Positions 6,954 to 19,239 of a DNA stretch of 64,000 nucleotides are shown in pieces. Each line of letters begins with the position of its first letter. Within the stretch, counting starts at the first letter, position 1. The stretch spans positions 248,001-312,000 of the forward strand of contig JALGSV010000004.1 of the NCBI GenBank assembly GCA_029821755.1, given 5' to 3'. The notes beneath the pieces are model-generated. The model was not told the origin of the DNA, did no database searches, and saw nothing but the letters and a program-made list of their open reading frames with translations. Origin of the DNA: Candidatus Zipacnadum vermilionense. Its GTDB lineage: Bacteria; Armatimonadota; Zipacnadia; Zipacnadales; Zipacnadaceae. Made by a program: the position numbers and the translations under genes.

Positions 6954-7014
6954 GGAGAAGTTCATCCCTGTCGTTCATTCTCGACTCGTGTCTCGCGACT
7001 ACAAAGGAGACCCC

Positions 7015-8232
7015 ATGACCCCCAAACAACGCGTACTGACCGCTCTCGCCCACCAGGAGCCCGACCGGGTGCCCTGGGGGGAGCACTTCATCGATTACAA
7101 CGTCTACGAGGACGTCCTGGGTCGGGAGACCTTCGTCCACGCCAAGTTCAAGGAGACCGAGGCCTGGTGGGACGGCCGCCGCGAGGAGATCGTCGCCTCC
7201 TACAAGCGCGATCTCGTGGACCTCACCCTGGCGCTGGAGCATGACGTGCTGGCCGTGCCCCTGGTGACCGCGAAGGGCCAGGAGCCCCAGCGGATGAAGC
7301 AGGTGGACGAGAACACCTGGGAGGAGAACGGCTACACCTACCGTATCTCCGCCACCACCCACGACCTGTGTATCTACAAGCGCCCCTCGGAGCCCTATCC
7401 GGTACCGACGCTGGAGAGCCTGCAGGAGCAAATCGACCAGGTGGACGCCGAGGGAGTTCCCGCCCCGGACGAGTCGGCCTGGGAGGTCGTGCGGCATGTG
7501 CGGGGGGTGCTGGGCGAGACGCACTTCCTAGTCTCCTTCGCCGGCGACATTGGCTTCCCCGGCTTCGGCTATGGGGACGGGGAGTTCTACCTGAACACGG
7601 CCCTGCACCCGGAGCTGCATGCTAAGCTGACCGAGTTGGCTGCCAAGCGCGCCATCGCCGGCATGAAGTACTACGCCGAGCAGGGCCTCGACGGCGTGAT
7701 GGGCGCGGCCGACTACGGCAGTTCCTCCTCCCTGCTGGCCAACCCCCGCATCATGGAGCAACACATGGCCTACTGGATGAAAGCGATCGCGGACGAGGTA
7801 CACCGCCTGGGGATGAAGTATCTTAAGCACTCCTGCGGCTGCAACTGGGAGGCCCTGCCCTACTTCGTGGCGGCGGGTTACGACGCCTACGAGGGCATCC
7901 AAATCAGCGCCGGGATGGATATGAAGGACCTCAAGCGTCTGTACGGAGACCAGCTCGCCCTGTGGGGCGGCGTAACCAACGAGAACCTGATCCTGGGCAC
8001 GCCCGAGCGGGTGCAGGCCGACGCGCTTTACGCCCTGCGCTACGGCGCGCCCGGTGGCGGGTTCATCTATGGCGCCACCCATTCCCTGGCCGTCGGCACC
8101 AAGCCGGAGAATCTGGCCATGATGAAGCAAATGCTAGATGAGTACGGGGTCTATCCCCTCCGCATCCCCGAGGGCATGGGTATGGCCCCGGGCTTCCCAG
8201 CCCCCGTGACGCTGCCGGAGCGCTTCCGGTAG
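7015..8232 (+). CDS. UroD-family methyltransferase-like protein with HSCG site
   Basis: A 405-residue UroD-fold protein. The barrel carries LKHSCGCNWEALP, giving the H-x-C part of the zinc site of corrinoid methyltransferases. The usual distal cysteine near the C terminus is replaced (GATHSLAVGT), so the third ligand may be histidine. KQRVLTALAHQEPDRVPW is the family's standard N terminus. The start at 7015 has AAAGGAG 8 bases upstream. Likely role: methyl transfer from a methylated corrinoid or demethylation of a small substrate. The substrate is unknown, and the closeness of another UroD-like gene upstream and a transporter-like membrane protein downstream suggests uptake and demethylation of one compound. 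Confidence 0.82.
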   Translation: MTPKQRVLTALAHQEPDRVPWGEHFIDYNVYEDVLGRETFVHAKFKETEAWWDGRREEIVASYKRDLVDLTLALEHDVLAVPLVTAKGQEPQRMKQVDENTWEENGYTYRISATTHDLCIYKRPSEPYPVPTLESLQEQIDQVDAEGVPAPDESAWEVVRHVRGVLGETHFLVSFAGDIGFPGFGYGDGEFYLNTALHPELHAKLTELAAKRAIAGMKYYAEQGLDGVMGAADYGSSSSLLANPRIMEQHMAYWMKAIADEVHRLGMKYLKHSCGCNWEALPYFVAAGYDAYEGIQISAGMDMKDLKRLYGDQLALWGGVTNENLILGTPERVQADALYALRYGAPGGGFIYGATHSLAVGTKPENLAMMKQMLDEYGVYPLRIPEGMGMAPGFPAPVTLPERFR

Positions 8233-8234
8233 TC

Positions 8235-8250
8235 CAGGCCTCCAAGCCTG
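8235..8250. repeat. Short hairpin relic of the GGGCTTC repeat family
   Basis: CAGGC and GCCTG flank a TCCAA loop directly after the stop of the preceding gene. A similar degenerate copy is at 10273-10303, reading GGTAGCGCGGGCTTCGC. Confidence 0.4.
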
Positions 8251-8345
8251 TGCTGCCGGCACGCGCCCGTTCGCTTCCGGACCGCAACCCGAGGCAAGCC
8301 CGCCCCGCGCCCCGGGTGGCTTCCGTGGCCGCCTCTGAGGTACGC

Positions 8346-10265
8346 ATGGCTCTCTCCGCAAGACAGTCCGGCGCCGTTTCCCACCGCCTCACCGCCTGGG
8401 GGCCGATGGTGGGGTTGGTGGTTAGTGCTCTCCTCGTGGTCGTGGCCGCGTTTGGCTCCACCCGGTTCAAGTTCTATAGCGGCTTCACCGACCACTTCAA
8501 CACCATCGGCGCTACCTTTTTCTTCTTCCTGGTGTGCTGGCCGCTGATGGCAATCATCTACCGCGTGGCGCGGCGCCGCCTCTCCGCCGCCGACCGGGCG
8601 CTGATCTACCTGTGCCTGATGATGGCTACCGTGGTACCCACCATGGGCACCTGCGGCTATCTGCTGCCGCTCATCTCCGGCGTGTCCTATTACGCCACCG
8701 GGGAGAACGGCTGGCGGGCGCTGCTGGTCGAGCACCTCCCACCCTTCCTGATCACCTCGCCGGGCCAGGCCAGCGCCTGGTTCTACGAGGGCCTCCCCCC
8801 GGGCCTGGCCCCGCCCTACCACATCTGGTATACGCCGCTGCTGTTCTGGGGGAGCTTCTTCCTGGTGCTGGCGGTGGTGAGTCTCGCGGCGATGATCCTG
8901 ATGCGGCGGCAGTGGGAGGACCACGAACACTTAGCCTACCCGTTGACCGCCCTGCCGCTGGAGCTGATCGGGGCCGCCCCGCCCCGTCGCTCGCCTTTGT
9001 GGGTCAACCGCCTGTTCTGGATGGGCTTTGTCCTGGCCCTGGGGATCACGTTCTACAACGCCGCGGCCCTGCTCATCAACGGCCTGTTTATGGTCTCCTT
9101 GCGCCCGGCCACCTTCAGCACCTGGTTCTCCCTCTTCCGTCGCACCGTAGGCGTATCCGTCCTGTTCGATCCCCTCGTCATTGGCCTGAGCTACCTGGTG
9201 ACGGTTGACGTGTTGTTGGGGGTGATCGTCTTCTACTGGCTGACTACCGTCCAGGTGGGCATCCTGAACCTCCTCGGCGTGGATCGGGCTACGGGCATGC
9301 CCCACGCCGCCGGCGGCGGGTTGATGGCCCTGCAGCAGAGTGGGGCCCTGCTGTTCATGACCGGCCTAGCGCTCTGGAACGCGCGGGCGCATCTGGCGGC
9401 CCTGTGGCGAGGCCAGGCTGACGACCGGCGGGAGATCGCCCCTTACCGCCTGTGCCTCTTCCTCTTCCTGGCCGGGAGCGGGGTGCTATGGTACATGCTG
9501 ACCATCACCGGTCTCTCGGCCGCACTGGCCGCCTTTGTACTGCTCGTGGCGCTGAGCTTCTTCCTGGGGACCACCTACCTACTCGCGCAGACGGGAATCG
9601 GCCGCCTGCGCGCCCCCCACAGCACCGCCGGGTTGGTAGGAGAGCTTTTCGGCACCGCCCGTATGACTCCACCCCAGCTTGCCGCGCTGGGGCTGACCTT
9701 CATCTGGGGCGGGGACATCCAGCTCTTCACCATGGGCACGGCGGCAATGGGCCTGCAGGCGGTACACCGCGCCCGGCCCGACCGCCCCCGGTGGGCCTTC
9801 CCCACGGCGATGGCGGCGGCAGCGCTGGCGTTACTGACGGCCTTCGCGGCGTACCTGACCTTCGGGTACAAGTACGGGGCGCACGGAGGGTTCGGCTGGT
9901 ACTTTGAGGCCTCACCGGTCTACCACTGGGGTTGGATCGAGCAGCAGATACGGGGCGGATCGCAGCCGTCCTGGTCGGCGTGGGCGCTGATGGCGCTGGG
10001 CGGGGGCGCGACCTTCCTCGTGGACTTGCTGCACCGCCAGTACTCCTGGTGGCCGCTGCACCCGGCGGGGCTGGCGATTGCGCAGATCAATACGGTGGTA
10101 ATCGACTGGTTTTCGATCTTCCTGGCATGGCTGCTGAAAGTGGTGATCTTGCGCTACGGCGGGGCGGGCGCCTTCCGCCAGAGCCTCCCCTTCTTCCTGG
10201 GGATGGTAGCGGGGAGTTGTGCGGGGATCAGCCTGAGCTTCGTGGTGAACATGCTGACGGCGTGA
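8346..10265 (+). CDS. Large polytopic membrane protein (DUF6785/DUF6784-like)
   Basis: A 639-residue integral membrane protein with roughly 13-15 hydrophobic helices, beginning at residues 20-45 (MVGLVVSALLVVVAAFG). Conserved-looking loops include MGTCGYLLPLISG, STWFSLFRRTVG and KYGAHGGFGWYF. The overall pattern resembles uncharacterised families annotated DUF6785/DUF6784, abundant in environmental bacteria. The start at 8346 has GAGG just upstream; an earlier in-frame ATG at 8250 falls within repeat DNA. It closes a run with two UroD-like genes. Transport of a methylated or sugar-linked substrate is an inference from that context only. Confidence 0.75.
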   Translation: MALSARQSGAVSHRLTAWGPMVGLVVSALLVVVAAFGSTRFKFYSGFTDHFNTIGATFFFFLVCWPLMAIIYRVARRRLSAADRALIYLCLMMATVVPTMGTCGYLLPLISGVSYYATGENGWRALLVEHLPPFLITSPGQASAWFYEGLPPGLAPPYHIWYTPLLFWGSFFLVLAVVSLAAMILMRRQWEDHEHLAYPLTALPLELIGAAPPRRSPLWVNRLFWMGFVLALGITFYNAAALLINGLFMVSLRPATFSTWFSLFRRTVGVSVLFDPLVIGLSYLVTVDVLLGVIVFYWLTTVQVGILNLLGVDRATGMPHAAGGGLMALQQSGALLFMTGLALWNARAHLAALWRGQADDRREIAPYRLCLFLFLAGSGVLWYMLTITGLSAALAAFVLLVALSFFLGTTYLLAQTGIGRLRAPHSTAGLVGELFGTARMTPPQLAALGLTFIWGGDIQLFTMGTAAMGLQAVHRARPDRPRWAFPTAMAAAALALLTAFAAYLTFGYKYGAHGGFGWYFEASPVYHWGWIEQQIRGGSQPSWSAWALMALGGGATFLVDLLHRQYSWWPLHPAGLAIAQINTVVIDWFSIFLAWLLKVVILRYGGAGAFRQSLPFFLGMVAGSCAGISLSFVVNMLTA

Positions 10266-10328: not shown

Positions 10329-11372
10329 CTACCTGTGCCTGTTTCCCGGCCCCTTCCCCACCGTCCGCCCCATCTCGTGTATCCTTCCGCTCAGGCACAG
10401 ACGGCAAGCTTCGGCCGTCTCGTTGACACAGTCTTTCTCCGGGTAGATCTCATACAGGGCCCGGTACTTCACTGGGGTCAGGTTGGGCATGACCACGTTC
10501 GCCCCGCGCGCCAGACCCAGCTCCCGCCCCGTCGCCTTGTTCAGCGTCGCCAGGGCCGTAGTGGTGGGGAGGTTGGCTTGCGGGCAGACGATCCGCGCGA
10601 GGGCCACGACCCTGTAGGTCATGTCCTCGGTGTTGGGGGCCTGCTCCCCTGCGGGTAGCGCTGGCTGCCCAGCTTGTGCCTTCCCTGCTCCCAGCGGCGT
10701 CTCCGGGTGCGCTATCCACGGCCCCACTCCGATCATGTCCAGATCCAACTCCCCGAACAGGGCCAGGTCGTTCGCCAGACTCGCATACGTCTGCCCCGGT
10801 AGGCCGATCATCACCCCGCCGCCGATCTCGTACCCCATCTCCCGCAGCCGCCGCAGCAGGGCAAGGCGGTCGGACCGCTCCTGGCCCGCCCGGAGCGGAT
10901 GGATGCGCTCATACAGCTTCCGGTCGGAGGTCTCAAAGCGTAGCAAGTACCGGTCGGCCCCGGCCTCCCGCCACGCGAGCAGGTCCTCCTCCGGCCGCTC
11001 CCCCAGGCTCAGCGTCACCGCCAGCGGCGTCTCGGCCTTCAGGCGCTGGATCACCTCCGCCAGGGGCTCCCGCCGGAGGCCATAGTCCTCCCCCGCCTGC
11101 AGCACCACCGTCCCGTAGCCGTACTCCACCGCCTGCCGCGCGCATTCCAGCACCTCGGGCCAGCTCATCCGATACCGCGTGATCTTCCGCTCCCGGCGGA
11201 GCCCGCAGTACCCGCACGACCGCACGCAGAAGTTGGAGATCTCTAGCAGCCCGCGCAAGTGAATCTCGTCGCCGACGTTCTGGGCCCGCACGCGGTCGGT
11301 CTCCGCCCAGAGCTCTTCCAGGCGAGCGGGGGAGGTTTCGCGGAGCCAGGTTTCGAGGTCGGTGAGGGTCAT
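10329..11372 (-). CDS. hydE: [FeFe]-hydrogenase maturation radical SAM enzyme HydE
   Basis: A 347-residue radical SAM protein. The cluster motif CVRSCGYC gives CX3CX2C at residues 49, 53 and 56. LRGLLEISNFC, VLQAGEDYG, GGGVMIGLPGQT and MPNLTP are HydE/BioB-family landmarks. HydE acts with HydG and HydF to build the diiron subcluster of [FeFe]-hydrogenase. It starts 40 bases after hydF, at an ATG preferred over an upstream TTG; the ribosome site is weak. The second cluster of some HydE proteins is represented by ETAEACRLCLSGR near the C terminus. No hydrogenase large subunit is in the window, so the target enzyme lies elsewhere. PylB is a related alternative but the hydF linkage settles it. 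Confidence 0.92.
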   Translation of the reverse strand: MTLTDLETWLRETSPARLEELWAETDRVRAQNVGDEIHLRGLLEISNFCVRSCGYCGLRRERKITRYRMSWPEVLECARQAVEYGYGTVVLQAGEDYGLRREPLAEVIQRLKAETPLAVTLSLGERPEEDLLAWREAGADRYLLRFETSDRKLYERIHPLRAGQERSDRLALLRRLREMGYEIGGGVMIGLPGQTYASLANDLALFGELDLDMIGVGPWIAHPETPLGAGKAQAGQPALPAGEQAPNTEDMTYRVVALARIVCPQANLPTTTALATLNKATGRELGLARGANVVMPNLTPVKYRALYEIYPEKDCVNETAEACRLCLSGRIHEMGRTVGKGPGNRHR

Positions 11373-11411
11373 AATCGCTGGCGGGCGTTGCCGCGCACGC
11401 AATATTCGCCC

Positions 11412-12665
11412 CTACGTGAGGCGCGTGGTCAAGCGAGTCTGCGCCTCCCGCCACACCTCCAGCGCCGCCGGGAAGGGCTCCAGCACCCTTTCCATTATCC
11501 CCAGCGAGTAGGCGATCACCACGCCGTAGTTCGTGATCGGCACGCCCGCTTGTCTGCACTTGAGCAGTCGCGTCAGCATCTCCCGGCGATTCCACATGCA
11601 CGCCCCGCAGTGGATCACCAGCTTGTACCGGAAGAGATCTGCTGGGAAATCGTGGCCCTGAACGGTATCGAACTCCAGCTTGCCGCCCACGTACTGCTGC
11701 AGCCAGCGCGGAATCTTCACCCGGCCGATATCGTCAGCGATGGGGTGATGCGAGCAGGCCTCGGCGACCAGGACGCGGTCACCGGACTTCAAGGTCTCCA
11801 CAGCGAGAGCGCCGCGGACCTGCTCCGGCAAGTCACCTCGGAAGCGAGCAAAGATGATGGAGAAGGAGGTCAAAGGGATTTCCGGCGGTGTGTCGGCAGC
11901 CACCTTCAGGAAGACCTGGGAGTCGGTGACCACCAGTTTCGGCGGCCGGTTCAGGCGCCCCAAGGCGGCGCGCAGCTCCCGCTCCTTGACGATCAGGCAG
12001 TACGAATCGTTGTCCAGCAGGTCGCGGATGGAGTTCACCTGCGGCAGAATCAGTCGGCCCTTGGGAGCTTCCTTGTCCACCGGCACGACCAGCACCGCCA
12101 TCTCCCCCGGCCCCACAAGGTCGGCGAGGATCGTCGGGTTGCTGATGAGATCCTCCGGCGCGGCGTCCAGGAAAGCTTGCCGCAAGTCCAGGATTCCCTG
12201 CCCGAGGGTGGCGGCGGTCCGCACCACCGGCATCTTCTCCGCCGCGAAACGGTCCAGCAGGTCCGGGCGCGGCGAGCCGAGGTCCACCTTGTTGAAGACG
12301 ACAATGGCGGGGATCTCCCGCCCCCGCAGCTCGGCCAGCATCTGCTCCTCGAACTCGCCCCACTCACCCGGCTCGGTGATGATGACGCCGATATCGGTGC
12401 GGTCAAAGACCTGCCGCGTCTTGGCCACCCGCAACTCGCCGAGCGCGCCGACATCATCAATCCCGGCGGTATCAATGAACAGCACCGGCCCCAGCGGCAA
12501 GAGTTCCATCGGCTTCTCCACCGGGTCGGTAGTGGTCCCGGCGAACTCGGAGACGATCGAGACCTGCTGGCGGGTCATGGCGTTGAGCAAGGAGGACTTG
12601 CCCACGTTGCGTCGACCAAACAGGCCGATATGTAATCGAAAGCCCTTAGGTGTCTTCTGTGGCAT
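11412..12665 (-). CDS. hydF: [FeFe]-hydrogenase maturation GTPase/scaffold HydF
   Basis: A 417-residue protein. The N-terminal GTPase has a P-loop GRRNVGKSS (17-25), the switch TTTDPVEKP and DTAGIDDVG. A dimerisation domain follows. The C-terminal cluster-binding domain has ACSHHP and HCGACMWNR, giving the three cysteines that hold the [4Fe-4S] scaffold cluster. HydF receives the diiron precursor from HydE/HydG and delivers it to apo-hydrogenase. It lies between a UroD-like gene (16 bases upstream) and hydE, in one minus-strand unit with hydG. Confidence 0.95.
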   Translation of the reverse strand: MPQKTPKGFRLHIGLFGRRNVGKSSLLNAMTRQQVSIVSEFAGTTTDPVEKPMELLPLGPVLFIDTAGIDDVGALGELRVAKTRQVFDRTDIGVIITEPGEWGEFEEQMLAELRGREIPAIVVFNKVDLGSPRPDLLDRFAAEKMPVVRTAATLGQGILDLRQAFLDAAPEDLISNPTILADLVGPGEMAVLVVPVDKEAPKGRLILPQVNSIRDLLDNDSYCLIVKERELRAALGRLNRPPKLVVTDSQVFLKVAADTPPEIPLTSFSIIFARFRGDLPEQVRGALAVETLKSGDRVLVAEACSHHPIADDIGRVKIPRWLQQYVGGKLEFDTVQGHDFPADLFRYKLVIHCGACMWNRREMLTRLLKCRQAGVPITNYGVVIAYSLGIMERVLEPFPAALEVWREAQTRLTTRLT

Positions 12666-12680
12666 GGTCTACTCCGAAGG

Positions 12681-13811
12681 TCAGTGTGGTCCCGGCTTGG
12701 CCGGCGGGGACGCGTCCCCCAGCTCAGCGAGGCGTCTGGTCGTCAACTCGACCAGTTCGTCCTGCATGCGCCGGGACGCCTCGTCGCCGGCAGTGTTTAT
12801 GATCATGGACAGGCCCCGCGAGTCGAGGTGAGTCACGAAACACTCCACCTCCCAGGCCTCCACACAACTGATGAAGAGACACTTACCGGCCGCCTGGATC
12901 TGCTGCATCTCGGGCAGCAACTCCGTGAACCGCGGACTATTGGGATCGTGCCCGAACTGAATAAGCTGTATCTCCTCCAGGGTGAGCAGGCTGTCCAGGT
13001 GGTGCCGGCAGCCATCGTGCCAATGTAGGACCGTGCGCTCAGTATGCCCCGCCATCTCCTGAATCGCCGGCAGAAACACCTCCCGGTACATCGCCGGGGA
13101 GAAATTGATGGCCATGTCGTCCTGCACCGTCCCCAACGGCCGATCGCTCCAGCAGGGCATCCAGTTCGCCATTCCATCGTTCGCGGCGGTGATGGGGGGG
13201 CGCACCAGGTCGAGGGCTCGGTTACACTCGCGGGCCAGACGCAGGGCGAAATCCCGCATTCGCTCCGGATGCTCAATCGTCTCCAGTAGGAAGTTGCCGG
13301 TGCCCATCACAGCGGAGAGCCAGTCGGTGGGCCCGCCGAAGTCCGTCGTGCCCAGCTGCATCTGTCCGGCGCACCGGGCCGAGAAGTAGGCGACTGTCTC
13401 CAGGTGCGCCTTCCAGTAGGGGTTGTCCTCGTCGAAATGAACGCGGTCGGCCTCGTCTAGGCTGGCGATCAGCGGCTCGTGCCATACGGTATCGCGCCCG
13501 AATACCGGCTGCGCCCCACAGAAACCAATGAACACGTTGGGGCCGTAAGAGGGGATGCAGTACTGGAACAAGTCGGCGTGCCAGTGCCAGTTACTGCGCT
13601 GCCAGGTCTTGAGCGCGAAGAGCTTGTCCGGGTTAAGGTACTTCTCGGCAGAAGCCTCGACCATCCAGGGCTCAGGGGCCGAGCGCTCTGCAGTCGGGTT
13701 CTGGACGTGCGCGAGAAGGCACCCGTCCTCAACCTGCTTGGACCAGTTGGCCAGGTAGCGCCGGCGCAGTTGGGGCCACTCGGGTATCTGCTGGTAAACG
13801 TACTCCTGCAT
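12681..13811 (-). CDS. UroD-family protein embedded in the hyd operon
   Basis: A 376-residue UroD-fold protein, recognisable from its architecture (C-terminal QLIQFGHDPNSPRF and CLFISCVEAWEVE). The metal-site region is HWHDGCRHH rather than HxCG. The ATG at 13811 shares its A with the TAA of the aspartase remnant (TAATG), so translation may be coupled to a dead gene. AAGAGG lies upstream. It precedes hydF by 16 bases. I know of no established role for UroD-like proteins in H-cluster assembly. The placement may be accidental or may link a corrinoid or sugar pathway to hydrogenase expression. Confidence 0.75.
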   Translation of the reverse strand: MQEYVYQQIPEWPQLRRRYLANWSKQVEDGCLLAHVQNPTAERSAPEPWMVEASAEKYLNPDKLFALKTWQRSNWHWHADLFQYCIPSYGPNVFIGFCGAQPVFGRDTVWHEPLIASLDEADRVHFDEDNPYWKAHLETVAYFSARCAGQMQLGTTDFGGPTDWLSAVMGTGNFLLETIEHPERMRDFALRLARECNRALDLVRPPITAANDGMANWMPCWSDRPLGTVQDDMAINFSPAMYREVFLPAIQEMAGHTERTVLHWHDGCRHHLDSLLTLEEIQLIQFGHDPNSPRFTELLPEMQQIQAAGKCLFISCVEAWEVECFVTHLDSRGLSMIINTAGDEASRRMQDELVELTTRRLAELGDASPPAKPGPH

Positions 13812-14044
13812 TACGCCTCTTCGTGGTGAGGAATCTCTGCCATCCCCAGCCGCGTCACGATCTTCGGACTCATCAACTCCCCGAATGGCCCCGCGGTCAG
13901 CAGCGCCTCCTCGATCGCCATTTCTCGCACCGTCCGCCCGGCCAACGGGAAATTCTCCCGCGCCCGCGCCGTATGGATGCGCTACAGGGCCTCGGCGGGG
14001 AGGGAGAGGGAACCGAGAAGGTCGTGTTCGTCTCTGTACGGCAT
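13811..14044 (-). pseudogene. aspA: Aspartate ammonia-lyase remnant (ends joined, middle lost, one stop)
   Basis: A 78-codon frame reading RDEHDLLGSLSLPAEAL, stop, IHTARARENFPLAGRTV and then REMAIEEALLT to the end. The first half matches the N terminus of aspartase/fumarase-class lyases (DLLG-VPA-A-YGIHT-RA-ENFP). The second half matches their C terminus (GK-VRE--LE-GLLT). About 390 central residues, including all catalytic ones, are missing. A TAG at codon 21 stands where a tyrosine TAC is expected. Frame is otherwise kept, and the element abuts the neighbours exactly (the 1179-aa gene's stop ends at 14045; the UroD ATG overlaps the TAA). Aspartase genes occur beside hydE/F/G in several anaerobes, so this looks like a relic in its ancestral place. 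Confidence 0.75.
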
Positions 14045-17000
14045 TTACCTTAGGACGACTATCTCCCCTCCCGCCGGCACCTCCACTACCTTGTCCCCTA
14101 TCGCCAACCCCGGCAGCGTCATCCGCTGCGTCAGCTTCACCCGCAGGGGCTTGTCCGTCGGGTTGTTGACCGCGCAATAGTAGGTGTCCGGCTGGTCCGT
14201 GAGCTTGGTGAAGGTGATGAAGACGTCTGGATTGTCCGCCACTACCGGATGCCCCATGAGCACGTCTTGCCCCTCGCCGAGCTCAGTGTTGAGGCGCACA
14301 TACGCCACGTCCTCGATGCTGCCGATCGGGCGGTACTTGCCCCGGGCGGCGTCCCACAGACCCGCGTCCCAGCGGCTGTTGAGGCCGTAGAGGCGCAACC
14401 CCAGGACCACGTGCAGCTTCGGCCCGGCGGGGGGAGGAATGGACAGACTAACCACTCCGTTGTCGGCCTGCAGGTCGAGGAGGCCGCGCGTGGAGAGGAC
14501 CTTGCCTTGCTTGAGCGTCAAGTCGTACCCCGGCTGGCCGCCCTCGCCCAGCCCCAGGTATTTTCGGATCTCCTCGTAGCGCTGCAGGCTGTTGTTGTCG
14601 GCGGTGCGGCCGGAGAGGGTCAGGAACTCATAGCTGTAGGTATCGCCCTGCTTCACCTGCTTACCGGCCAGGTCCGCGAACAATTTGGTGCTGTCGTCGT
14701 CGTGGCGGAAGATGAGCGGAGCGCCGAGGTTGTAGACGACCCCCGATCCCACCGGCTGTAGACCGAACATGGCCATGAAGCCGTCGCGCTCGATGGTGTA
14801 GGGGCCGATCAAACTGGTCTCGCCGTCCAGGATGAAGCCCTGGAGGTACTCCGCAGCGACGGTGACACCCTCTTGCGTGTGCGCTACCGCCTGGATGACC
14901 TGCTGGTTGGGCACCTTGTACATGTCCCACGGCGTCCAACTGTTCATCACCATCAGGCTCTGCACCGTCTGGTCCTGCTTGAAAGTGATCTTCCCGGTGA
15001 ACAGCGACGGCGCCACCCAGGCCTTGTCGGGCTTGGCGGGCTCCTCCGGCAGCGGCCAGTAGTTGAACCCGACGCGGTAGGTGATGTTGTGCTGCTCGAA
15101 GGTCATCAGGTCGGTGTCGATTAGCGGTCCGTAGGTACCCCAAACCATCCAGATCTTCTCGCTCGCCGGGTACTTCTTGTAAGACTCCTCCCAGAAGTGG
15201 CGAGCGTCCTCCGAGATGAACCACTGGTAGGCCCGGTGGTTGAAGTACCGGTCCCCTTCCGTACCCTTATCGCTCACCAACAACGGATGGAACTTGAAGG
15301 GCACGCCCAGGTTGCCGTTGGTGTCGATGCCCTTACCCGCGTAGTTCGGCCCCAGCTCGACCGAGGCGCCGAAAGCGTACGGCCCGTGGTAGAGGTAGCC
15401 ATTCTCCCGATCGCTGCACCAGAAATGGTAGTTGAGCTGGTTGCGGTCGAACTGCTCGCCGCTGATCGCTTGGCGCCCCTGGGTATCGGTGACCTCCAGG
15501 ACCAGATTCTTCTGCTGGTTGTGCGAGAACTCGAAGATGCGCAGGAAATCCTTCTCCCCGCCCAGCACGAACCGGCGGAAGAGCCTCGGACCGTCCCAGA
15601 TCTTGATCTCGGCCAGGCCCACCTCGCTGGTCACATGACACCGCACCCGCCAGCGGTAGTTGGAGGTGATGAAGTTCTCGCCCACACCGGTGGCGTCGCG
15701 GTTGGTGCAGTCCCAGTCCTTGATGACCGGCCCCTGCGAGAGGTACGCTCTCGGCTGCACCAAGTAGCTGTACCACAGTGCCGACATGACGTTCTCCAGC
15801 TTGTCCGTCCGCGCACAGGTGAGGAAGTGCCCGCCCGCCACCGCTTGCCGCAGCTCCTCCGGCGTAGCCACCAGGTCCACGCTTATTGGCACCGGATTGC
15901 AGCCCTGGTCGCTATTCTCCAGGAAGCCACGTAGATTGTCGGCGAGGCCCTCCTGCTGCTGGCCGTTACGGTAGTAGGTCACCCCCATGCTGTTGTACAA
16001 CCGTAGGTCCCAGTAGGGGGCGGAGTCGGCGTGGGACTTGAAGTTGAAGTAGCCGAGCGCGTTCTGGCCCTGGGCAAAGGAGATCATGAAGCCGATGTGT
16101 GGAATGCCGCTGGAGTCCGGTCGCGCCGATACGTCAAACTGCTTGCCGTCCGCCGTCAAATACATCGGCGCCGGCCAGATCAGCTTCTCTCCGAAGAAGA
16201 ACTGGGAATGACCGCGGTTGTCATCGATATGCAGGCCGGGAATGGCCCGGAATTCGGCTGTGGTTCCCGCCGCGCAAGCCTTCTTCAGTTCCTCCAGCTT
16301 GCCCGCGTTCATGGCCGTGAAGTTCTCCAAGAACACTAGGTAATCCAGCCCCGCCTGCTCCGCTGCACGGATCATCTCCGCCGGGCTGGACTCACTCGCC
16401 GAGGAGAGGCTGCTGCGCGCCCCGATCAGACCGCGCCAGGAGGGCACCTCGCCCTGCATGCGACTGAGCAGTTGCTCCCCGGTCGTGCCCTCCGCTTTGG
16501 CTCGTGCCTCGAGAGCCGCCATGTCCACCTGCGCCGCCGGTTGCTCGGCCGGGAACAGCAGCTCCTGTGGGGTCATCACGTGGGTCGCCGGGCGGAACTC
16601 CACCAACCGGCTCCCGTCCTGCACATACCCGCCCACGGTCCCGCTCGCCAGGCTGGGCTCGGCCAGCCAGCGGAAAGTGTTCTCGAACAGCATGAAGAGG
16701 TCGTTGGGGATGTTGTTGATCCCCTGGCCCTCCATCATCACGCCGTCTAGCCCGCGGCTGGAACCGCCCATCAAGTGGAAGGTCCCGTTCATCGCCATGA
16801 AGGCCATGCGCCCCTGGCGTATCTCCCGCACCGCGAGAATCGGTGGCGCCGAGTCGTAGCCCTTCTCCACTACCACGTCCTCCGGGTAGCCGAAGTGGCT
16901 CCCCAGCAGGTTCAGTTCCTGGGGGCCCTGGCTACGCGCCGTCGGCGCGCCGCTGACCACGACCTGCCAGTTCTCGTCGCCCCGGATCGGCGTCGTGGAG

Positions 17001-17584
17001 GGCACCTTCCGCCCCGATTCGTCCACCGGATACCAGATTCCCCTCAGCCCCTCGGTGATCGGGTGCTGAGCGAAGTTGGTGGTGTAAGCGTACTTGTTCC
17101 GCGGCCAAATCCCCGCGGTCACCAGACCGGTGTCGGTGATCCACTGCTCAAAGAGGTATTGCATCCCGTAGCGCGGGAAGAGGCTCTTCTGCGTTGCCTG
17201 CAGAAGCGGCACTGAATCCCCCCACAGGTCCAGATTGGGGATGATCCACACGCTACCGCCGGCTTCGATGTACTGGTCGATCAAGTCCAGCGTCTGCTCT
17301 AACTGCGCCTCCACCCCAGTGGAGTTGTACAGAACAAGGTCCTGGAAGACGACCACGTTGTACTTCTTCATCCGCGCCAGGTCCAGCCGATACGACTCGA
17401 GGTAGTCCATCTGGAAACCGTCGCGGGCAAAGCGCTGGAAGGAGGGAAAATCCGTGGACTCCCACCCGCGGTGAGTCAGAGGCACCCACAGCACAGAGGG
17501 CTTCCTTTGGTCCTGGGCGAGGGCAGGGATGGCCAGAGCAACTGCCATAAGCGCAAGCAATAGGCACGCCAGGTAGTGCTTCAT
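14045..17584 (-). CDS. Large secreted protein with GATase-like and PHP-like regions
   Basis: A 1179-residue exported protein with signal peptide LACLLLALMAVALAIPALA. Residues about 28-330 resemble the ThuA/type-1 glutamine-amidotransferase-like fold (VLWVPLTHRGWES, GGSVWIIPNLDLWGD, GRMAFMAMNGTFH). Residues about 390-620 resemble a PHP or amidohydrolase-like region, with AAEQAGLDYLVFLEN and the histidine-bearing IPGLHIDDNRGHSQFFF. The rest is probably beta-rich carbohydrate-associated sequence. The ATG at 17584 has GGAAG upstream. It lies between hydG and the aspartase remnant on the same strand, with no spacer before the latter. Specific activity unknown; polysaccharide handling is an inference from the other secreted proteins here. 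Confidence 0.7.
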   Translation of the reverse strand: MKHYLACLLLALMAVALAIPALAQDQRKPSVLWVPLTHRGWESTDFPSFQRFARDGFQMDYLESYRLDLARMKKYNVVVFQDLVLYNSTGVEAQLEQTLDLIDQYIEAGGSVWIIPNLDLWGDSVPLLQATQKSLFPRYGMQYLFEQWITDTGLVTAGIWPRNKYAYTTNFAQHPITEGLRGIWYPVDESGRKVPSTTPIRGDENWQVVVSGAPTARSQGPQELNLLGSHFGYPEDVVVEKGYDSAPPILAVREIRQGRMAFMAMNGTFHLMGGSSRGLDGVMMEGQGINNIPNDLFMLFENTFRWLAEPSLASGTVGGYVQDGSRLVEFRPATHVMTPQELLFPAEQPAAQVDMAALEARAKAEGTTGEQLLSRMQGEVPSWRGLIGARSSLSSASESSPAEMIRAAEQAGLDYLVFLENFTAMNAGKLEELKKACAAGTTAEFRAIPGLHIDDNRGHSQFFFGEKLIWPAPMYLTADGKQFDVSARPDSSGIPHIGFMISFAQGQNALGYFNFKSHADSAPYWDLRLYNSMGVTYYRNGQQQEGLADNLRGFLENSDQGCNPVPISVDLVATPEELRQAVAGGHFLTCARTDKLENVMSALWYSYLVQPRAYLSQGPVIKDWDCTNRDATGVGENFITSNYRWRVRCHVTSEVGLAEIKIWDGPRLFRRFVLGGEKDFLRIFEFSHNQQKNLVLEVTDTQGRQAISGEQFDRNQLNYHFWCSDRENGYLYHGPYAFGASVELGPNYAGKGIDTNGNLGVPFKFHPLLVSDKGTEGDRYFNHRAYQWFISEDARHFWEESYKKYPASEKIWMVWGTYGPLIDTDLMTFEQHNITYRVGFNYWPLPEEPAKPDKAWVAPSLFTGKITFKQDQTVQSLMVMNSWTPWDMYKVPNQQVIQAVAHTQEGVTVAAEYLQGFILDGETSLIGPYTIERDGFMAMFGLQPVGSGVVYNLGAPLIFRHDDDSTKLFADLAGKQVKQGDTYSYEFLTLSGRTADNNSLQRYEEIRKYLGLGEGGQPGYDLTLKQGKVLSTRGLLDLQADNGVVSLSIPPPAGPKLHVVLGLRLYGLNSRWDAGLWDAARGKYRPIGSIEDVAYVRLNTELGEGQDVLMGHPVVADNPDVFITFTKLTDQPDTYYCAVNNPTDKPLRVKLTQRMTLPGLAIGDKVVEVPAGGEIVVLR

Positions 17585-17753: not shown

Positions 17754-19154
17754 CTAGCAGTACACGTCCCGCTTCCCACCTCGCACTGCTTCCAGCAGCT
17801 TCTCCGAAGTACCTCGCGCCCTCTCGTCCATGCCCGCCAACGTCTCGGCGATCAACTTCTCCCCTGCCGCCTTCGTGGCCGGGGAGGCATAGTCCAGCAC
17901 GTACTCCTGGAAGGTAGACACGGCGTTAGGGGCGCAGTGCCATTTGATCTCGCCGGGCTTGGCCAGGTCCATGAAGTCCCCACCCGTTCGCCCCAGCCGG
18001 TAGCAGGCGGTGCAGAAGGAGGGAATGTACCCCATTTCCGCCACGTCACGGATGACCTCATCCAGCGGGCGATGGTCGCCCAGGCAGAACTGTTCGCCGT
18101 CCGGGTCGGAGTCTCCCTCGGCATAGCCGCCGGGGTTGGTCCGGCTCCCCGCCGAAATCTGCGATATCCCCAGCGCGAAGGTCTCCCGGCGCATCTGTGC
18201 CGTCTCGCGCGTGGTCATGATGATGCCGGTGTAAGGCACCGCCATGCGCAGGATGGCCACGATCTTCTGGAAGTCCCTATCTGAGACGGGGTGTGGGGGA
18301 GTGGTGGCGACATCCGACCCCAGCGCCAGCTCCATGCGCGGCACGCTAATGGTGTGCGGACCTACGCCGAAATGGTCCTCCAGGTGGGCGATGTGCTGCA
18401 GCAGCGCAAGGATCTCGAAGCGCACGTCGGCCAGCCCAAAAAGAATCCCCACGCCCACATCGTTGATCCCGGCCGTCATGGCCCGATCCATGGCGCCTAT
18501 ACGCCAGTCGTAGTCGGCCTTCTTCCCCGACCGGTGCATCTGCGCATAGGTCTCTCGGTGGTAGGTCTCCTGGAAGACCTGGTAGGTCCCGATCTTGGCG
18601 TCCTTGAGCAGCCGAAACTCGTCGACCGTCAGCGGCGCCACGTTCACATTGGCCCGCCGTATCTCCCCTGGCCCACTGATGACGCTGTAGATGGTCTCGA
18701 TGCTGTCCAGCACATACTGTAACCCGTGCTGTGGGTAGGACTCGCCCGCCACTACCAGGATGCGCTTGTGCCCCTGCTCCACCAACAGCTTCACTTCGCG
18801 CGCGATCTCCTCCTGGGTCAGCGCCCGCCGCTTGAGCAGCTTGTTGCTGGCCCGGAAGGCGCAGTAAAGGCACTCATTGGCGCACAGGTTGGAGATGTAC
18901 AGCGGGGCGAACAACACCAGCCGCTGGCCGTAGATGCTCTCCTTCACCTCGCGTGCCGTATGGAATAGCTCCTCCAACAGCGCCGGCTCGTCTACGCCCA
19001 TCAGCGTGGTGACCCCGGCGGTGTCGAGGCCGTGCAACTCCCGGGCCTGCGCCAGAATCTCTTGCACCCGTGCCGGCTCCGGCCGGACGGCCGACTCCAG
19101 GGTCTCCTGAATCTCCTCTTCACGAATCTCCACGGTCTCCGCCACTGCACTCAT
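17754..19154 (-). CDS. hydG: [FeFe]-hydrogenase maturation radical SAM tyrosine lyase HydG
   Basis: A 466-residue enzyme that cleaves tyrosine to p-cresol, CO and cyanide ligands for the H-cluster. The radical SAM motif CANECLYC gives CX3CX2C at residues 91, 95 and 98. The C-terminal auxiliary-cluster motif is CTACYRLG...HC with exactly 22 residues between the second and third cysteines (CX2CX22C), which separates HydG from its relative ThiH. The start is the ATG at 19154; a GTG three bases earlier is also possible. It is the first gene of the minus-strand hyd run, but is separated from hydF by about 5.1 kb of other genes. Confidence 0.95.
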   Translation of the reverse strand: MSAVAETVEIREEEIQETLESAVRPEPARVQEILAQARELHGLDTAGVTTLMGVDEPALLEELFHTAREVKESIYGQRLVLFAPLYISNLCANECLYCAFRASNKLLKRRALTQEEIAREVKLLVEQGHKRILVVAGESYPQHGLQYVLDSIETIYSVISGPGEIRRANVNVAPLTVDEFRLLKDAKIGTYQVFQETYHRETYAQMHRSGKKADYDWRIGAMDRAMTAGINDVGVGILFGLADVRFEILALLQHIAHLEDHFGVGPHTISVPRMELALGSDVATTPPHPVSDRDFQKIVAILRMAVPYTGIIMTTRETAQMRRETFALGISQISAGSRTNPGGYAEGDSDPDGEQFCLGDHRPLDEVIRDVAEMGYIPSFCTACYRLGRTGGDFMDLAKPGEIKWHCAPNAVSTFQEYVLDYASPATKAAGEKLIAETLAGMDERARGTSEKLLEAVRGGKRDVYC

Positions 19155-19239
19155 CACAAGACGCCTTCTTTCAAGCTGCGAATTTCACCTATTCAGTATC
19201 CTCAATATGCCATATGCACCCCGCCGTGCCGACGAGGGC

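Follow-up and report, generated by a model that had tools for sequence, protein, structure and literature searches.

A probable aspA pseudogene in the [FeFe]-hydrogenase maturation operon of Candidatus Zipacnadum vermilionense

The [FeFe]-hydrogenase maturation genes of Candidatus Zipacnadum vermilionense lie on the minus strand of a 64,000-nucleotide stretch of contig JALGSV010000004.1 (here referred to as the window). The operon order is hydG, a gene for an 1179-aa protein, a 78-codon frame, a UroD-like gene, hydF, and hydE, with one gene between the 78-codon frame and hydF (Table 1). This frame, which we call the relic, joins the first ~40 and the last ~40 residues of an aspartate ammonia-lyase (AspA) and translates as MPYRDEHDLLGSLSLPAEAL*RIHTARARENFPLAGRTVREMAIEEALLTAGPFGELMSPKIVTRLGMAEIPHHEEA*, the asterisks being stops. 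Its junctions with both neighbors are as exact as an initial annotation of this DNA had described them: the upstream gene ends in ...GGTAA and the ATG of the relic follows with zero spacing, and the 3' end reads GCGTAATGCAG, in which TAATG is the stop of the relic overlapping the start of the next gene. GC contents at the three codon positions are 0.69/0.45/0.82, compared to 0.65/0.42/0.85 for hydG, and are thus coding-like. The UroD-like protein has no significant match in Pfam, NCBIfam, or the PDB, and a purine-rich GAAGAGG stretch lies directly upstream of its start. Beyond hydE, the plus strand (6988-10265) carries a gene for a MtaA/URO-D-like methyltransferase and, after it, one for a DUF6785/DUF6784 membrane protein.

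Table 1. Coordinates of the operon genes and of the parts of the relic, numbered from the first letter of the window
Feature	Position	Strand	Remarks
hydG, maturase, first operon gene	17754..19157	-	TIGR03955, 2e-159
1179-aa secreted-type protein, between hydG and relic	14045..17584	-	no Pfam match; many-copy family in genome
aspA pseudogene (probable)	13811..14044	-	start codon to natural stop, 78 codons; ~394 codons internally deleted; TAG is codon 21
N-terminal AspA part	13928..14044	-	codons 1-39; HMM positions 4-43 are codons 1-40; best NCBIfam E 1.2e-7
In-frame TAG nonsense codon (codon 21)	13982..13984	-	family Tyr/Trp/His position
Inferred deletion junction GRTVR (codons 36-40)	13925..13939	-	common to both family blocks; GGGCG-like short homology
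C-terminal AspA part	13814..13939	-	codons 36-77; HMM positions 433-467 are codons 36-70
UroD/MtaA-like gene (tentative name), between relic and hydF	12681..13811	-	no family match; start overlaps relic stop (TAATG)
hydF, maturation GTPase	11412..12665	-	TIGR03918, 8e-167
hydE, maturase	10329..11402	-	TIGR03956, 1.5e-88

Both halves of the relic match AspA. The N half is recognized by NCBIfam aspartate ammonia-lyase models (E=1.2e-7 and 5.9e-5), contains the AspA block YRxEHDLLG...GIHTxRAxENFPL, and also matches solved fumarase and aspartase structures (PDB 3rrp, a fumarase, E 6.5e-8); among the NCBIfam models, aspartate ammonia-lyase comes out on top for the relic. The C half contains the block GRTVRExxLExGLLT...SPExVTRLG and, judged on its sequence alone, appears modestly significant, with a match to Pfam FumaraseC_C (PF10415) at E=0.0038 and 18.1 bits that falls under the 32.5-bit cut-off. 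Using an AspA HMM trained on 45 intact sequences from relatives and from other hyd loci, we found positions 4-43 (i-E 8.5e-11) and then positions 433-467 (i-E 9.7e-4) in a single frame, ordered and overlapping by five residues (GRTVR), which bears out the initial reading of the frame as the two ends of an AspA. The relic scores 40.8 bits with this HMM, compared to 3.7 bits for the top of 2000 codon shuffles, and a six-frame search of the whole window with the same HMM returned no other segment above 1.5 bits. The closest intact protein (L133) shares 66% identity (23/35) with the N half and 62% (23/37) with the C half.

What lies between the two blocks in intact genes is gone. In the 45 intact aspA genes, the blocks are spaced by 391-399 codons (median of 394, the expected length of the deletion), and model positions 44-432, which include the central lyase domain and its GSSxMPxKxNP catalytic loop, are absent from the relic. 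The removed segment carries the catalytic core of the fumarase/aspartase superfamily fold. At both deletion ends, Gly-Arg or Gly-Lys codons with GGGCG-like DNA are common in intact genes, which makes deletion at short homology plausible. The second lesion is the TAG. The position had been described as the family tyrosine; the stop is indeed at codon 21, but in relatives the residue varies among Tyr, Trp, His, and Phe (LYGIHT, LWGIHT, LHGIHT). TAG differs by one base from the codons for Trp (TGG) and Tyr (TAT or TAC), and the conserved Gly that immediately follows is Arg in the relic. Where an AspA gene has an uninterrupted frame of ~470 codons, the relic has 78 codons with a TAG at codon 21; it is a pseudogene and not a functional AspA member, and no enzyme can be made from it.

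Because the TAG sits in an otherwise open frame, and methyltransferase-like genes are nearby, we considered readthrough, either with insertion of pyrrolysine or with the help of a suppressor. No PylS was found above the cut-off in the genome, where the matches were weak and the best was a lysyl-tRNA-synthetase-like protein; pyrrolysine was therefore rejected and the TAG is taken as a stop. Moreover, a readthrough product would still be without the catalytic core, and we give readthrough of any kind almost no credence. A second concern is the assembly itself, since the relic comes from one draft genome (115 contigs, 95% complete) in which an intact aspA could have been collapsed or missequenced. 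Such an artefact would have to account for two independent lesions, a deletion and a nonsense codon; the junction homology of a few bases is too short for assembler collapse, and the rest of the genome yielded no orphan AspA fragment. We consider it very improbable.

Intact aspA genes occupy the corresponding slot in relatives. A same-class genome (G045) has the order hydG-aspA-hydF-hydE; two genomes of the same order (G017 and G022) have hydE-aspA-hydF, another of the same class (G044) and G055 have aspA-hydF, and in G019 and G024 aspA lies directly before hydF with hydE upstream of both. Over 10598 bases, G044 is identical to WJIW01000133.1 (Armatimonadia bacterium Bin_177), which places the window in the phylum Armatimonadota. 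More broadly, among 80 named HydF loci found by scanning GTDB with a HydF alignment, aspA lies <700 bp upstream of hydF in 40, hydG precedes aspA in 36, and hydG and hydF occur without aspA in 9, in agreement with the earlier expectation that aspA is found beside hyd genes in other organisms. The slot proteins of G017, G045, G044, and G019 exceed the cut-off of the aspartate ammonia-lyase subfamily PRK12273 (599-653 versus 510 bits), and aspA models beat fumC in all four; the same proteins fall under the stricter aspA equivalog cut-off TIGR00839 (461-554 versus 681 bits), so it is on the grounds of family and context that we presume them to have AspA activity. Given the synteny in relatives and the counts from the 80 loci, the slot is ancestral in the ordinary sense, and loss of aspA from it is also common.

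Closer relatives document that loss. A search of 14 genomes from the same genus and family detected HydF in just one, the same-genus G001, in which hydG and hydF are separated by 388 bp with no AspA signal; this genome lost aspA altogether. At full sensitivity, the AspA HMM found no remnant in the hydG-hydF gaps of G001, of four genomes of family f5 (where AspA absence is based on a short query), or of nine named loci. The 78-codon frame itself is absent from all 14 same-genus and same-family genomes (E 0.001), and there is thus no relative among them that lacks aspA yet keeps the frame with its stop.

The claim that the relic sits at its ancestral position holds for the slot but probably not for its present immediate neighbors. 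The family of the 1179-aa protein is represented many times in the window genome and in G001, with no member in the hyd loci of relatives that were compared. A close homologue of the UroD-like protein was found only in the same-genus G002 (66%), where the preceding gene is unrelated and there is no relic upstream, and a GTDB scan with the UroD-like protein gave no match. Both genes look like lineage-specific insertions flanking aspA rather than its ancestral partners.

The remnant could have been kept as a translational bridge, with ribosomes that start at its own ATG, or at a start after the TAG, ending at TAATG and feeding translation of the UroD-like gene. The exact overlap, the coding-like codon composition, and the ATG codons present inside the relic downstream of the TAG are in keeping with this. 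On the other hand, the UroD-like start has its own purine-rich stretch, the G002 homologue does without a relic, no relative conserves the frame, and the TAG would halt most ribosomes 57 codons early; we regard such a role as unlikely. The earlier proposal that an internal deletion occurred while operon coupling was kept is upheld for the deletion, of ~394 codons; the coupling has probably been disrupted by the TAG, or at a minimum changed. A functional small protein encoded by the 78-codon frame or by the 57 codons after the TAG, such as an AspA remnant that binds HydF, would explain why both ends of the frame and its codon composition are kept. However, the frame has an in-frame stop, the conserved Gly beside this stop is replaced by Arg, and none of the 14 related genomes conserves the frame, which leaves a product of this kind highly unlikely.

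We therefore favor, with a probability of about 0.93, the reading of this frame as a pseudogene of the aspA of [FeFe]-hydrogenase maturation operons. In this reading, ~394 codons with the catalytic core were lost through an in-frame internal deletion, whose likely endpoints are short G+C-rich homologies at the two Gly-Arg/Lys sites, and codon 21 acquired its nonsense mutation before or after that event, the order of the lesions being conjectural. Against this reading stand the intact frame at both ends, the coding-like GC, and the exact junctions, which are surprising for a gene in long decay and require that decay is recent or that the remnant was retained; the modest significance of the C half and the draft state of the assembly also count against it. 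Gene decay of this kind is ordinary. A literature search found no described aspA pseudogene in a hyd operon. The relic catches the loss of aspA part-way, in an operon whose AspA is presumably the nitrogen source for the dithiomethylamine bridge of the H-cluster.

Pagnier et al. (2024) showed in vitro that either AspA or SdaA can serve as the source of ammonium for the nitrogen of the dithiomethylamine ligand. Of the ammonia-lyase genes, they found aspA to be the most frequent in the vicinity of hydF, and they stated that in every case examined, organisms producing [FeFe]-hydrogenase keep two ammonia-lyase sources (PMC11736057). The window genome encodes the [FeFe]-hydrogenase HydA (L102, 347 bits) along with HydEFG. 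Searches of this genome returned no FumC/AspA C-terminal domain above threshold, no serine dehydratase alpha domain (SdaA), and, in one family search, no threonine ammonia-lyase (IlvA) above the cut-off; its Lyase_1 proteins are just two, ArgH (argininosuccinate lyase) and an adenylosuccinate-lyase-like (PurB-like) protein, and the IlvA search matched threonine synthase, cysteine synthase, and a protein whose sequence looks TrpB-like. The genome thus appears to be without a replacement among the named ammonia-lyases (AspA, SdaA, and IlvA), and several HydF-bearing relatives in family f5 are also without SdaA. Either the ambient supply of ammonium suffices for maturation or another enzyme provides it, and loss of aspA would have been tolerated if dithiomethylamine (DTMA) synthesis now draws on free ammonium or a different source. 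That the H-cluster is matured here without any named ammonia-lyase, via ambient ammonium or an undescribed source, strikes us as an even bet; if true, it would contradict the published two-source generalization (PMC11736057). This absence, rather than an ordinary pseudogene, is the part worth following, as the relic and the missing lyases together provide a test case from nature for the question of whether [FeFe]-hydrogenase maturation in vivo requires an ammonia-lyase at all.

Set against known systems, the relic resembles the aspA of hyd operons (PMC11736057) in its slot beside hydF and in its N- and C-terminal sequence blocks, and differs from it in the loss of ~394 central codons, with the catalytic core, and in the stop at codon 21. 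It belongs to the same superfamily as class II fumarase (FumC), and its N-terminal block also matches fumarases, but NCBIfam places aspartate ammonia-lyase first for both the relic and the intact slot homologues. With hyd operons that have no aspA, such as those ordered hydG-hydF-hydE (family f5 genomes; L144, L163, L177, and L184), this operon shares HydG, HydF, HydE, and the want of a working AspA; whereas the gaps of those operons show no detectable aspA remnant, an intermediate state is seen here.
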